The notes under the pieces were generated by a model that saw only the letters and a list, made by a program, of their open reading frames with translations, was not told the DNA's origin and did not search any database. This document shows, in pieces, positions 22,838-57,186 of a stretch of DNA of 64,000 nucleotides (position 1 is the first letter of the stretch; the number at the start of each line of letters is the position of its first letter). This stretch comes from Sorex araneus (taxonomy: Eukaryota > Chordata > Mammalia > Eulipotyphla > Soricidae), in assembly GCF_027595985.1 (NCBI RefSeq), contig NC_073304.1, positions 221,316,500 to 221,380,499 on the forward strand, in the 5' to 3' direction. The translations under genes were made by a program, and so were the position numbers.

Positions 22838-22929
22838 AAAAAATTATTTTGGGAGAAAAGTAAGAGCCTTACCCACTGGACTGACTTGCCAGTCCCCAAA
22901 AATGTGGTTGGTTGTTTTCTTTCCTTTTC

Positions 22930-23545
<616 letters not shown>

Positions 23546-23554
23546 CTTTTTTTG

Positions 23555-23910
23555 GTTTGTTTTTGGGCCCATCTGTGATACTCAGGGCTTACTCCTGGCT
23601 CTGAGCTCAGGGATCACTCCAAATGGTCTCAGGGGACCACCTGGGATGCTGGGGATTGAACCCACATGGCCCGGGGCAGCTGTGTGAAAAGTGGTGCTTT
23701 CCCTACCTGCTGTACTATTGCATGGTCCTCTAAAAGATTATCATGTTTAATTTCTTTTTAATGTATTTTTATTAATTTGGGGGGATGGGTGTGCCATAGG
23801 GCTTTCTCCTGACTCTGGACTCAGGGGCTCATCCATAGTGCCGGGAACCAAACTTTGGTCAGCTACATGCAAGTCAAGTGCTTCCCCTGCTGAACTACCC
23901 CATGGACCTA
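23555..23910 (-). repeat. Two SOR-like SINEs, reverse, diverged
   Basis: Copies at about 23555-23730 and 23770-23910. Confidence 0.75.
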
Positions 23911-37494: not shown

Positions 37495-38298
37495 TTAGGT
37501 GCCGGGCTCCCCTCGCCCTCCCATGCGGCTGCTCTTCCGGTGGTTCCACATCTCGTTCTCCAGCCGCAGGCGCTGGTTTTCCGTCCGCAGCCGCTCCACC
37601 TCGGCGGCCAGCTCCTCCACCTGGCGGCAGGGCTGGTGGCTGGCGGCGCCCCGCAGCTGCTGCAGCCGGAGGGTCTCCTCCTCGGCCTGCGACAGCCGCC
37701 GCTCCAGCTCCAGGTAGTCGCGCACCAGCTCCTGCTTGCTGCGGCCCTGCAGGCTCTCGGCGTGGTAGCGCTCGTAGGCCTCCGAGAAATCCCTCTGCTG
37801 GAACTCGCCGTGGGCCGTGCCGTGCCCGTCACTGTCCCCCGCCTCACTGTCCCCGCTGGAACCGGGGTGCGAGGCCCCGTGAGGCACGTCCAGGTTGGGC
37901 TCCTCTGGGTCTCGGTCGTTCATGAGGAACTGCGTGGTGTTGTAGGGGGCCACGGGCTGGCCCTTGGCGAACATCTCCTCGCGCACCCGGGAGGCCCGCT
38001 GGCCCTGCCACTCGTCCCGCTGCTGCTTCTCGGCCCAGCTCAGCTCCAGGTAGGGCCGCCAGTGGCGCTTGCGCTTCGTCGGCCTCCGCCGGTGCTTCTT
38101 CCGGCCCAGCACGGCCTCCACCGAGCTGCCCTCTGGGCTCTGGGTCCTGGAAGGCCGGCAGTCTCTGCCCGGGGCACCACCCGCTCCGGTGCCATCATCT
38201 TCTTCTGAGTGGCTGTCTAACTGGGGCGTCTGGGGCAGGGAATCGCCAGGGTCACAAGACTCGGGGGGAGTCTGGGGGCTCCCAGGAGCACCAGAGAT
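37495..38298 (-). CDS. HEXIM2: HEXIM2, main (last) coding exon
   Basis: HEXIM2 is the paralogue of HEXIM1. It binds 7SK RNA and inhibits the CDK9/cyclin T kinase P-TEFb in the nucleus, restraining RNA polymerase II pause release. This exon encodes 267 residues. In exon numbering: a Ser/Pro-rich start (1-60), the basic RNA-binding motif GRKKHRRRPTKRKRHW (65-80), the family block LSWAEKQQRDE (86-96), MFAKGQPVAPYNTTQFLMND with PYNT at 118-121 (P-TEFb inhibition), an acidic stretch (145-158), the FSEAYERYHAESLQ block (171-184) and a leucine-rich coiled coil (187-251, cyclin T binding and dimerisation). It ends GEPGT then TAA, like the human protein as I remember it. The acceptor TTTCTCTTCAG directly precedes codon ATC, phase 0. 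A longer open frame reading into the intron with an upstream ATG is not the likely start, because the splice site and the conserved upstream exon argue against it. Confidence 0.95.
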   Translation of the reverse strand: MSGAPGSPQTPPESCDPGDSLPQTPQLDSHSEEDDGTGAGGAPGRDCRPSRTQSPEGSSVEAVLGRKKHRRRPTKRKRHWRPYLELSWAEKQQRDEWQGQRASRVREEMFAKGQPVAPYNTTQFLMNDRDPEEPNLDVPHGASHPGSSGDSEAGDSDGHGTAHGEFQQRDFSEAYERYHAESLQGRSKQELVRDYLELERRLSQAEEETLRLQQLRGAASHQPCRQVEELAAEVERLRTENQRLRLENEMWNHRKSSRMGGRGEPGT

Positions 38299-38404: not shown

Positions 38405-38680
38405 CCGCAAGCGTGGCACACTCCTAACGTGGCACACCCAGCTACGATGGCACACTCTGCTCATGGGGCACACTCCACTAACGTGGCACGCCCCTGCCAA
38501 TATGGCCCACTGGCCCACTCTGCTAACGTGGCACACTCCACTAACGTGGCACACCTGGCTAACGTGGCAACCCCACTAATATGGCATACTCTGCTGCCAA
38601 TGTCACACACTCCGCTGATGTGGTACGCCCCACTAACCTGGCACTCTAACGTGGCACACCCAGCTAACATGGCTACTCTC
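38405..38680. repeat. Minisatellite, unit about 18 bp
   Basis: About 14 diverged tandem units based on CACTAACGTGGCACACTC. It begins about 105 bases upstream (in transcription sense) of the HEXIM2 last-exon acceptor. Units vary between about 15 and 21 bp. Confidence 0.92.
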
Positions 38681-44500: not shown

Positions 44501-44606
44501 CTTGACCTTCTCCAGGGCTGCAGCTGGGCGGTCACAACTGGTCTGGTTCCGAGTGGGCCCCTTCTTCTGTTCCCAGGCTTCCGCAGAGACCTTTAAGTAG
44601 GGACAC
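44501..44606 (-). CDS. HEXIM2: HEXIM2 first coding exon (N-terminus), start codon not visible
   Basis: The minus strand reads TRNQTSCDRPAAALEKVK up to a consensus donor (AAG then GTAAGC) at a codon boundary. It aligns with the human N-terminus TPNQTACNAESPVALEEAK as I remember it, and joins in phase 0 to the large exon. The 5' end is placed at a plausible acceptor (GTTTAGAGCAG, ending 44607). Human HEXIM2 starts with two Met codons and an Ala just before this peptide; here the codons are AAG, GGG and CCC. The frame stays open upstream with no ATG until an in-frame TAG just beyond the acceptor. The true start is therefore in another exon, at a non-AUG codon, or lost. The exact coding boundary within this exon is uncertain. 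Confidence 0.75.
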
Positions 44607-45399
44607 CTGCTCTAAACAACAACAGACACCCAGGCGCCTCGGGAGAGCGCCGGCCGCGGCTCCCCGGGCCCGGCCTCTGCAGCAAGGGGGAGCAGCCATT
44701 TTGTGGCGCTGCACAGCCTCCTTCCACACGCAGGCCCGGCGGGCGCCGGCCTGCACGGCCGGGCTGCCCACACCTGCGGGGGATTAAGGGAGCCTCTTCC
44801 CAGGCCGGTTCCTCAGGCCCCAGGCCAGGGCTGCCTTTGCATCCTGTTCTGGAGGGCCCCGAACCCAGCTTGGCAGCCAGGCCCAAGCTTTGTCTCCCCA
44901 ATGAGCCAAGCGGGGAAGGAAGGAGGCCGCCCGCGGGGCGGGGGGCGGGGGGGGGCAGCTGTGAAGAGGCAGCAATGACCAGGAGAGGTTGGGAGCTACC
45001 AGCGGCTAAGAAGAGAAAACAGGGAGCCTGGGGAGGAAGCACTTTCCCACGGCCTCCTGCTGCCCCCCCACCTCCTCCGAGGCGGCGTCGGTGCTTTGAG
45101 GAACACGGCCTTCTCCTCTGCAGAGCCTGGCCTGCCCTCCCTCCTCTAGCAGGGAAACCAGAGGAGCGGGGCACAGTGTTCACACTCCATGCAACTGCGA
45201 GGGAAACCCCACTGAGATCGAGCTGGACTCCTTGGAAGAGGGGGAATGATCCGGGAGGCAGGGTTTTGCAAAGGCGGAACTGACCTATTTGTTGTCAAGG
45301 GCTATGCCCACGACTACATCTGTGTGTCTTTCTGTGCGATCGCCTGTCTGCAATTCTCAACGCCTCAGCCCTACCTCCCGCTGCAGTGGCAGCAGCTCA

Positions 45400-46560
45400 G
45401 CCCGTCACTCAGGCACGGAGGTTGGGGGAGGGGGGGGCCACCCAGCTTGGGAGCGCGGTGCCTGCTGGGAACTGTAGTTCTCTTAGCCGGGAAGGCGGAG
45501 CGAGACCTCCGTCACAGCCACAGCGCCCATGGAGAACTCCAACACCCACTTCCCCTTGCGCGGGTGGCTACCCGCGCTCATCGCTGCCTATTCTAATAGG
45601 CCAACTCACCTGCCAATCAAGCCACTCCCGTCCACGATTCGCTGTGCGGAAGCACAACTTGAACCGCCTTTCTGAGCGCGATTAAAAAGAGTTCATTGAT
45701 GTCGTTAATCCTTACGGGGCGGGAGCTAGGTCCGGCTGAGGGGGCGGGGCCTGGGCGCGGAGGGATCCCGGGCCCTAGAGGAAGGCGACGAGGTGATCGG
45801 TGGCCGCCGCCGCCATTTTGGGCTGGGAGGAGGCAGCGGAGGGACTCGCTGCGCAGTGAGAGCACCCCATGGGGGGTGGTCCGGGCGCGGGGAGAGGCCG
45901 GGCCGAGAGGGCTGCCTGAAGTGGCGGCGCCGGGAGACAGCGGGGAGCGGGCTTGGGGCCTGGGACGAGGGCGGTGGGGGCGACGACGGTCGGAGTCTCC
46001 CCGGCCGGGCCCGGTCCTCAAACCGTCTCGGCAGCCCCGCAGCCCGGCCTCGGAGAGAGGGCGTGGTTCCGGGGCAGAGGCTGCGGGGGTCGTGTCCCGA
46101 GGCTCCCGTGGGGGACGAGACGGGGTGGCTCGTCTCCCCGCCGGCCCCCTGAAGCGGAGACCGGGCGCTCCCAAGTTCTTTCCCCTCCCCCCTCCGGCCC
46201 GGGCCCGGCGGCGAGACTCGGAGTGGCGGGGTTTCCCCCCCCTCCCCGGGGCGTGCGACCTGGGGACGACGCCCCGGGGGAGGGCAGAGGGGGCCTTTTT
46301 CGGCGGCGCGGGCCCCGGTGGCGCAGCAGCCCCCGGGGTTGCAGCGAGGGCGGGAGAGCCCGGGACGGCCCCCCACCCCCACCTCGAGGCGCCCGACCTC
46401 AGCACCACGCAGGGGGGTGGGGGGCACTGCCAAGGGTCGCGGTGCCCCTCCCCAAAGGTCGACACCCCAGGGGATGGGCTTGGGGGAGGGTCATTCCTTG
46501 GGGTTTTGTTTTGCCCCCTCCCAGGGTAGGGCACCAAGTGACTTGCGACTGGTCATGGCC
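45400..46560. promoter_or_regulatory. HEXIM2: CpG-island promoter, probably HEXIM2, possibly bidirectional
   Basis: CpG-rich sequence begins about 0.8 kb upstream of the HEXIM2 first coding exon. It contains a ZNF143-type motif (45460-45478, reverse complement ACTACAGTTCCCAGCAGGC), a YY1-type GCCGCCATTTTGG (about 45810-45822), GC boxes and CCAAT (about 45613). A good minus-strand donor lies at 45610. The frames across this island read both ways and look compositional. Divergent plus-strand transcription is possible. Confidence 0.7.
45604..45612 (-). other. HEXIM2: Candidate splice donor of HEXIM2 5' UTR exon 1
   Basis: CAGGTGAGT on the minus strand is a perfect donor consensus in the CpG island, and could splice to the acceptor at 44607. 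In the frame that would continue into exon 2 I found no ATG after the last upstream stop, so this exon would not supply the missing start. Confidence 0.45.
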
Positions 46561-56142: not shown

Positions 56143-57186
56143 CTAGTCTCCGAACTTGGACAGCGGCGCCCGCTCCTGCTGCCGGTGCAGCTGGTTCTCG
56201 GCGAGCAGCTGGAGGTTCTCGGCGCGCAGCCGCTCCAGCTCCAGCTCCAGCTCCCGCACGCGCGCGTCCTCGCCCGGCCGCTTGCTCTCCAGCCGCAGCC
56301 GGTTGTTCTCGTCCTCCATGCGCGAGAGGCACTTCTCCAGCTCCAGGTACTCCTTGATGAGCTCCTGCTTGCTCATGTTCTGCAGGCTCTCCGCGTGGTA
56401 CCGCTCGTACGTCTCCGAGAAGTCCCGCTGCAAGAACTCGCTGCCGTCGCCCCCCATCCCGTCGCTGCCCCCGTCCTCCTCACCCGCCTCCTCCATGAAG
56501 TCCTCGTCGCTGGTGTCGTCGGACTTGGCGGCGGCCCGCTTCGGGTAAAGGCCGGTCTTGAGGTCGGGCTCCTCCTGGTCGTGGTCATCCATGAGGAACT
56601 GCGTGGTGTTGTAGGGCGCGACCGGCTGGCCCTTGGCGAACATCTCGGCTCGCATCCTCGAGGCTCGCAGGCTCTGCTTCTCGTCGAACTTTTTCTTCTC
56701 CTCCCAGGTCAGCTTGTAGTAGGGCTTCCAGTGCCGCTTCTTCTTGGAGGGGCGTCTCCGGTGTTTCTTCTTGCCCAGCTGTCTCAGCTGCTGGCCCCAC
56801 GCCTCGCCCCCCGCGGCGGGCGCCCCCAGCTTGCTGGCGTCGGAGTCCTGGCACGGCGGGGCCGGGGGCTGCGCCTCGGGGCTCGGCTCCCCAACCGCCG
56901 CGGCCGGAGAGGGGCCGCGCTCCCCGTTCTGGCTCCTCTCGCCCGCTTCCAGGCACGGCTGGCCCTGCAGGGGCAGCATCGCGGGCCCTTTGCTCCCCTC
57001 GCCTTCCGGCCCCGGGGGACCGCCGGGCTGGGGGGCCGCTCTCGATTGCCACCTACTGTCCTCGTCGGGCGCCCGCTCCTCCGCGCCGGGGGGGCGCTCG
57101 GCCTTCGGCTCGGCGGGCACGGCAGCACCTGTGCAGTTGCTAGCCTGAGGCTGGGGCTGATGTTCTGGAAGGAGCGGCTCGGCCAT
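56143..57186 (-). CDS. HEXIM1: HEXIM1, P-TEFb inhibitor, intronless coding sequence
   Basis: HEXIM1 binds 7SK RNA as a dimer and then sequesters and inhibits P-TEFb (CDK9/cyclin T) in the nucleus, limiting pause release of RNA polymerase II. The 347-residue frame is complete in one exon, as in other mammals, and slightly shorter than the human 359 because the Pro/Gly-rich N-terminal part differs. It starts MAEPLLPEHQPQPQ. Features in order: variable N-terminal region (1-135); basic RNA-binding and nuclear-localisation motif KKKHRRRPSKKKRHWK (139-154); MFAKGQPVAPYNTTQFLMDD with PYNT at 191-194, needed for CDK9 inhibition; acidic stretch (about 223-249); DFSETYERYH block (255-264); coiled coil (about 270-338) for dimerisation and cyclin T binding; C-terminus PLSKFGD. 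All hallmark segments are intact, so it should be functional. The sequence is highly GC-rich and sits in a CpG island. Its paralogue HEXIM2 lies 18 kb downstream on the same strand. Confidence 0.98.
   Translation of the reverse strand: MAEPLLPEHQPQPQASNCTGAAVPAEPKAERPPGAEERAPDEDSRWQSRAAPQPGGPPGPEGEGSKGPAMLPLQGQPCLEAGERSQNGERGPSPAAAVGEPSPEAQPPAPPCQDSDASKLGAPAAGGEAWGQQLRQLGKKKHRRRPSKKKRHWKPYYKLTWEEKKKFDEKQSLRASRMRAEMFAKGQPVAPYNTTQFLMDDHDQEEPDLKTGLYPKRAAAKSDDTSDEDFMEEAGEEDGGSDGMGGDGSEFLQRDFSETYERYHAESLQNMSKQELIKEYLELEKCLSRMEDENNRLRLESKRPGEDARVRELELELERLRAENLQLLAENQLHRQQERAPLSKFGD

Follow-up and report, generated by a model that had tools for sequence, protein, structure and literature searches.

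The usual start codon of HEXIM2 is lost in the Sorex araneus genome. Within the stretch of 64,000 nucleotides that we analysed (the window, to which coordinates refer unless another contig is named), exon 2 of the gene, once its first coding exon (44501..44606, minus strand), contains no ATG in any frame. Instead, the codons AAG GGG CCC (44555..44563, minus strand, with AAG at 44563 and GGG at 44560) stand where Met-Met-Ala would be expected from human HEXIM2. The human frame opens with an AUG in the exon that precedes the main one, which is not so here. The same AAG GGG is carried by a retrocopy of the spliced HEXIM2 RNA, and the loss is therefore older than the retrocopy and does not represent a local assembly error. 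HEXIM2 probably still works, and we regard it as about an even call, judged from the sequence, that its full-length translation begins at a non-AUG codon, the CUG at 44515.

The HEXIM locus and the exons of HEXIM2

The HEXIM1 paralogue (56143..57186, minus strand) is an intact single open frame with an ordinary ATG in the context GAGCCATGG. HEXIM2, which adjoins it on the same strand, consists of a non-coding leader, exon 1 (45285..45462), exon 2, and a main exon that runs through the stop codon TAA (37495..38298). The 5′ end of exon 1 is approximate (~45462), being the point at which the retrocopy match begins, and its donor, TAG/GTCAGT, scores 7.0 after rounding; all splice-site scores were computed with weight tables. 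For exon 2, the donor AAG/GTAAGC scores 11.2 (maximum 12.6), whilst the acceptor is weak, at 6.4 of a maximum of 19.3 compared with 12.4 for the main-exon acceptor. The limits that the first-pass annotation gave for exon 2, 44606-44501 on the minus strand, are exact: the retrocopy joins the same edges. That annotation also had the exon splicing in phase 0 to the main exon (at 38298), with its frame open upstream as far as a TAG just before the acceptor, and both points hold.

Exon 2 and the main exon together form a 302-codon open frame that is intact to the stop, with no frame-breaking change along its length. Its translation includes an arginine-rich motif, KKHRRRPTKRKRHW (38059..38100, minus strand), which is predicted to bind 7SK, a role that we take from established knowledge of HEXIM proteins, and the PYNT motif (PYNTTQF) follows in frame. 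Substitutions are also present, including an R-to-W after the RNA-binding motif. The joined protein matches the Pfam HEXIM family (PF15313) at an E-value of 5.7e-51 (172.9 bits, curated cut-off 29), a match that also underlies our assignment of the main exon. A search of the whole assembly (2.406 Gb) with this family returned two matches, namely HEXIM1 and HEXIM2 of the window. The main exon alone matches the solved HEXIM1 coiled coils (2gd7) at an E-value of 6.6e-20, and the cyclin T-binding coiled coil is present by sequence. As such, the gene is like the known HEXIM2 and HEXIM1, the 7SK snRNP inhibitors of P-TEFb, in its PF15313 match, RNA-binding motif, PYNT motif, coiled coil and location beside HEXIM1; it is unlike them in having no AUG at the ancestral start, and in a predicted start that lies about 16 residues later at a CUG. 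No relatives were detected among the bacterial and archaeal contigs scanned.

The lack of an ATG in exon 2, and the AAG GGG CCC at the Met-Met-Ala site, had been pointed out previously and are borne out by our analysis, with the human side of the comparison taken as background. The accompanying description of exon 2 as aligning residue for residue with the human N-terminus was too strong, as nine of 18 residues equal those of human HEXIM2 and one residue is deleted. When a human 22-mer was compared with 4260 overlapping six-frame segments of the window, exon 2 gave the top score of 37, with 32 at the next distinct place; this margin is modest by itself, and the identity of exon 2 is settled by the retrocopy. 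A text search with two pieces of the human N-terminal peptide returned no match in the open-access literature.

A retrocopy as a record of the spliced mRNA

When the genome was searched at the DNA level with exon 2 and flanking sequence, two places were returned. One is the gene; at the other, which is 95 % identical, the match is confined to exon 2 plus the two bases before it. The main exon returned three, corresponding to HEXIM2, the retrocopy and HEXIM1. No second genome copy with an ATG was present among the best-scoring candidates for either query, and no HEXIM2 gene besides the one described here came to light in this genome. The second exon 2 place belongs to an element on another contig (L005, 3608-4212; G000:C1:409073107 onwards), which matches window segments 45461-45283 (87 %), 44608-44501 and 38303-37973 in spliced order and directly joined, its exon 2 match (409073434-409073541) abutting its main-exon match (409073107-409073433). 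This element is a retrocopy of spliced HEXIM2 RNA, and the path of the retrocopied transcript is exon 1 (~45462-45285), exon 2, main exon. The retrocopy bears a stop (CAG to TAG) and a one-base insertion, and is therefore dead. It samples one germline transcript only, and the transcripts of other tissues may differ.

Truncation of retrocopies usually affects the 5′ end. The one described here misses 3′ sequence of the mRNA: it ceases to match inside the main exon, at window position 37973, and has no poly(A) after that point. The transcript start that it indicates coincides with ACTACAGTTCCCAGCAGGCACCGCG (45454-45478, minus strand), which resembles the ZNF143 promoter motif. The donor at 45610 (score 12.5) was considered as the end of exon 1 and rejected, the retrocopy placing that end at 45285. 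This near-consensus site, CAG/GTGAGT (45604-45612, minus strand), is upstream of the retrocopy-indicated transcript start, and perhaps serves an alternative first exon or another transcript.

AUGs and stops along the mRNA

Upstream of exon 2, the HEXIM2 frame has the codons AGG AAT ACA ACA TTG CCC TAG, with a stop after six codons and no ATG. This TAG, in exon 1 (45302..45304, minus strand), closes the frame, and the retrocopied transcript has no in-frame ATG between it and the RNA-binding motif. The sole ATG of exon 1 (45319) forms an AUG-UAG start-stop upstream ORF (45314..45319, minus strand) that is unchanged in the retrocopy. After exon 1, the first AUGs of the spliced RNA are an out-of-frame pair at 38198 and 38195, which open an ORF of 52 or 51 codons (38040..38198, minus strand); the AUG at 38195 has A at -3 and G at +4. 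Only downstream of the RNA-binding motif does the main exon offer an in-frame AUG, that of MFAKGQP (37972..37974, minus strand; 159 codons), in a moderate context (G at -3, T at +4). The first-pass annotation named this the main exon's first Met, which holds for the HEXIM2 frame, and rightly stated that a start there would lose the RNA-binding motif; it is not, however, the first AUG, being preceded by those at 38198 and 38195. Since that out-of-frame pair lies upstream, the MFAKGQP start is less accessible.

The out-of-frame ORF stops 65 bases upstream of the MFAKGQP AUG. A frameshift from it into HEXIM2 was considered and rejected, as no classical slippery heptamer is present. Separately, an ATG in a strong context (CACAAAATGG) opens a 55-codon ORF (44532-44699, minus strand), which extends over part of exon 2 in a different frame from HEXIM2 and terminates 16 bases short of the CUG at 44515; it would be relevant if unspliced transcription starts just upstream.

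A candidate CUG start codon

The proposed start codon is a CTG at 44513..44515 (minus strand) in the context gcagccCTGgag (gcagcc CUG gag), which is identical in the retrocopy and opens a 272-codon HEXIM2 frame. A non-AUG start was among the options originally put forward for this gene; it is now the best supported of them, with the CUG at 44515 as the outstanding candidate on sequence grounds. According to PMC9082881, CUG is the most efficient non-AUG start codon, and the predicted best non-AUG site is (C/A)(A/G)(C/A)(A/C/G)CUGGAU; the CUG at 44515 fits six of the seven flanking positions of this optimum. Matches of this quality are found for 70 of the 3479 CTGs in the window (both strands), and for two of the 27 in the two exons, the other one being located after MFAKGQP. 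With three in-frame CTGs before the RNA-binding motif, one such match would arise by chance with a probability of about 6 %, and as the flanks are partly dictated by Ala-Leu-Glu codons the match may be coincidence. RNA around the CUG folds no better than shuffled sequences (z -0.18), and a helper stem-loop was thus rejected. Also rejected was the AAG at 44563, whose neighbouring bases are favourable (A at -3, G at +4), yet AAG is essentially unrecognised and unused as a start codon according to PMC9789052.

We next consider the effect of a shortened N-terminus, for which there are data from HEXIM1. The N-terminal region of that protein is described in PMC12901311 as poorly conserved and predicted to be disordered, and PMC1183248 reports that repression persists when HEXIM1 is deprived of its first 119 residues, whilst HEXIM1 181-359 does not repress. 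By analogy, HEXIM2 should tolerate the loss of about 16 residues, but not a start at MFAKGQP.

We propose that ribosomes would scan exon 1, whose sole AUG is the AUG-UAG element, and the AUG-free exon 2, and that a fraction of them would initiate at the CUG at 44515, in its context GCAGCC-CUG-GAG. The product would be a 272-residue HEXIM2, shorter by about 16 poorly conserved N-terminal residues, in which the coiled coil and both the RNA-binding and PYNT motifs are retained. Ribosomes passing the CUG would next reach the out-of-frame AUG pair at 38198/38195; because ribosomes that miss the CUG would meet this pair, the CUG would be the main route to an RNA-binding HEXIM2. Use of the CUG, its efficiency and a need for the HEXIM2 protein are what we infer from the findings presented here.

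Parent and retrocopy compared

Between the parent gene and the retrocopy there are 18 differences over 172 sites for exon 1, five over 106 for exon 2 and 27 over 326 for the main exon (4.7-10.5 % by exon); counting non-CpG sites, 31 of 533 differ (5.8 %). Assuming a few substitutions per billion sites per year, this would place the age of the retrocopy on the order of ten to twenty-five million years. C-to-T or G-to-A differences make up 35 of the 50, mainly with C or G in the parent and T or A in the retrocopy. Moreover, the parent has 35 CpGs, 15 of which appear as TG or CA in the retrocopy, compared with 0 of 17 in the reverse direction.

A comparison of 138 codons, which begins with the first complete one of exon 2 and stops short of the retrocopy insertion, gave seven synonymous and 20 amino-acid differences. 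With the human HEXIM2 protein as the outgroup, on which the polarisation depends, 14 of these 20 are changes in the retrocopy and none is parental, the remaining six being unpolarised and possibly parental. The 14:0 split has a binomial probability of 6e-5, and at non-CpG sites it is 6:0 (P 0.016). After the CUG at 44515 lie 13 of the 14 changes and five of the six at non-CpG sites, so that the split there is 13:0 and 5:0. The retrocopy has altered an arginine within the RNA-binding motif as well as residues beside the motif, and the parent carries no polarised change there; earlier S-to-T, R-to-W and S-to-G substitutions in or near the motif are common to both copies. If the retrocopy alone had changed, about nine synonymous differences would be expected for 20 amino-acid changes (neutral fraction 0.695), and seven were found in total. 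As the parent has undergone few changes of any sort, low mutational input to it, rather than selection, explains part of the 14:0 asymmetry. The comparison thus favours a gene that kept working after the loss of its AUG, less strongly than 14:0 implies.

From the RNA-binding motif to DVPHG, 72 of 75 residues equal human HEXIM2. In neutral simulations of these 75 residues, a mean of 7.5 changes had accumulated after 0.05 substitutions per site, and three or fewer changes had a probability of 0.059 after 0.05 substitutions per site and of 0.001 after 0.08. The match of 72 in 75 would therefore bound any relaxed period near the age of the retrocopy. The probability that 272 codons gain no new stop over 0.05 substitutions per site is 0.23, so that by itself the open frame says little. 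Conserved residues, counted by hand, number six of 13 ahead of the CUG at 44515 and 15 of 20 beyond it, which is not a significant difference (P 0.14). Dating the loss by the density of changes around the ATG was attempted and dropped, as residues 2 and 3 were perhaps never constrained.

Alternative explanations

Translation from an AUG in an unseen upstream exon, another of the initial suggestions, is unsupported for the transcript that can be reconstructed, with its in-frame TAG in exon 1 and no ATG before the RNA-binding motif. The retrocopy reveals one transcript only, and in non-germline tissues an alternative first exon might provide an in-frame AUG, spliced to exon 2 or to the main exon. 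Amongst donors scoring at least 7, an in-frame ATG accompanies two of the 14 located upstream, between 56140 and 44620 (49612 and 50745), and five of the 17 intron donors (44190, 42899, 42242, 38792 and 38670); these rates do not exceed the expectation from the window as a whole, at 149 of 609 donor-frame cases. Furthermore, of six of these seven cases compared with the rest of the window, 50745, 42899 and 38670 match other places in it, whilst 49612, 44190 and 38792 match only themselves, and no ATG between 46600 and 44500 reaches a donor scoring at least 7 with the correct frame still open. Such a survey can miss real exons, as the true exon 1 donor at 45285, which prints as 7.0, falls narrowly below the cut-off of 7 and outside the 14. 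Taken together, we consider a tissue-specific AUG exon unlikely. An equally doubtful alternative is that HEXIM2 is slowly dying in this lineage, tolerated through compensation by HEXIM1, with its frame open for want of time. HEXIM1 is indeed intact and adjoining, HEXIM paralogues can compensate for one another according to PMC12901311, and the stop-free probability of 0.23 given above would allow an unselected frame to survive. HEXIM2 also carries substitutions such as the R-to-W after the RNA-binding motif, and the parent has so few changes of any sort since the retrocopy that selection is not cleanly visible. Against this, the AUG was lost before a retrocopy that is now 5.8 % diverged at non-CpG sites, and the parent has since acquired no polarised amino-acid change, with six undecided; the R-to-W is itself common to the retrocopy and so does not reflect recent decay. 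The loss of function raised in the first-pass annotation is accordingly disfavoured, though it keeps some probability: the AUG had gone before the retrocopy arose, yet the frame is still open, and 14 changes are assigned to the retrocopy versus none to the parent, with six undecided.

Improbable to a greater degree is a short, 159-residue HEXIM2 made from MFAKGQP by reinitiation and without the RNA-binding motif. Its AUG is the first in-frame one of the two coding exons, and the out-of-frame ORF ends 65 bases before it. Nevertheless, its context is only moderate, and upstream of it, including the RNA-binding motif, the parent shows no polarised amino-acid change, whereas the retrocopy has changed an arginine of that motif. 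Repression is, in addition, lost by HEXIM1 181-359 (PMC1183248). Least credible by far is that the start codon was misassembled or that a rare variant occupies its site, for AAG GGG also occurs in an independent, diverged retrocopy on another contig.

Relation to known non-AUG starts

Genes that rely solely on a non-AUG start appear rare, and their origin is hard to trace once the switch is ancient. For HEXIM2, the ancestral AUG site can be located, its loss is ordered before the retrocopy, and there is a single candidate codon. Building on the CUG start proposed above, we advance more tentatively, and at somewhat less than even weight, that one mammalian lineage has switched a conserved pausing regulator from an AUG to an obligatory CUG. 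If true, HEXIM2 output would be placed under the control of the cell's start-codon stringency, with the out-of-frame AUG pair downstream absorbing those ribosomes that fail to start at the CUG. The novelty would lie in a conserved regulator having exchanged its AUG for a non-AUG start within one lineage, and in a retrocopy by which the events are ordered. Annotation restricted to AUG starts may begin HEXIM2 at MFAKGQP, or call it a pseudogene, and would thereby miss the RNA-binding half.

Several known systems bear comparison with this proposal. EIF4G2, TRPV6, STIM2 and TEAD1 are listed in PMC9789052 as mammalian genes that start exclusively or mainly at a non-AUG codon. Like HEXIM2, they have mRNAs in which no usable in-frame AUG would give the full-length protein; unlike HEXIM2, where non-AUG use is predicted and the AUG has apparently been lost in one lineage, their non-AUG use is reported there on experimental grounds. 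NELF-B, an RNA polymerase II pausing factor, has a non-AUG start, CUC, in human and mouse (PMC4444357). It is a regulator of the same transcription step with a non-AUG start, as predicted for HEXIM2, but its downstream AUG gives a working product, whereas the next in-frame AUG of HEXIM2 would lose the RNA-binding motif. Amongst the open-access literature matches listed, there was no report of AUG loss or a non-AUG start in HEXIM2: matches for HEXIM with shrew were, by title, on other subjects, and the match for HEXIM2 with start codon concerns viral transactivators.

Other features of the window

Additional features of the window include tRNA-Ala-like repeats, for which ARAGORN gave nine hits, and a minisatellite of 18-base units (38412-38591) just upstream of the main-exon acceptor. 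A long pyrimidine-rich simple repeat (22847-23601) is open in several frames, with translations of the FLSF and KKER types.
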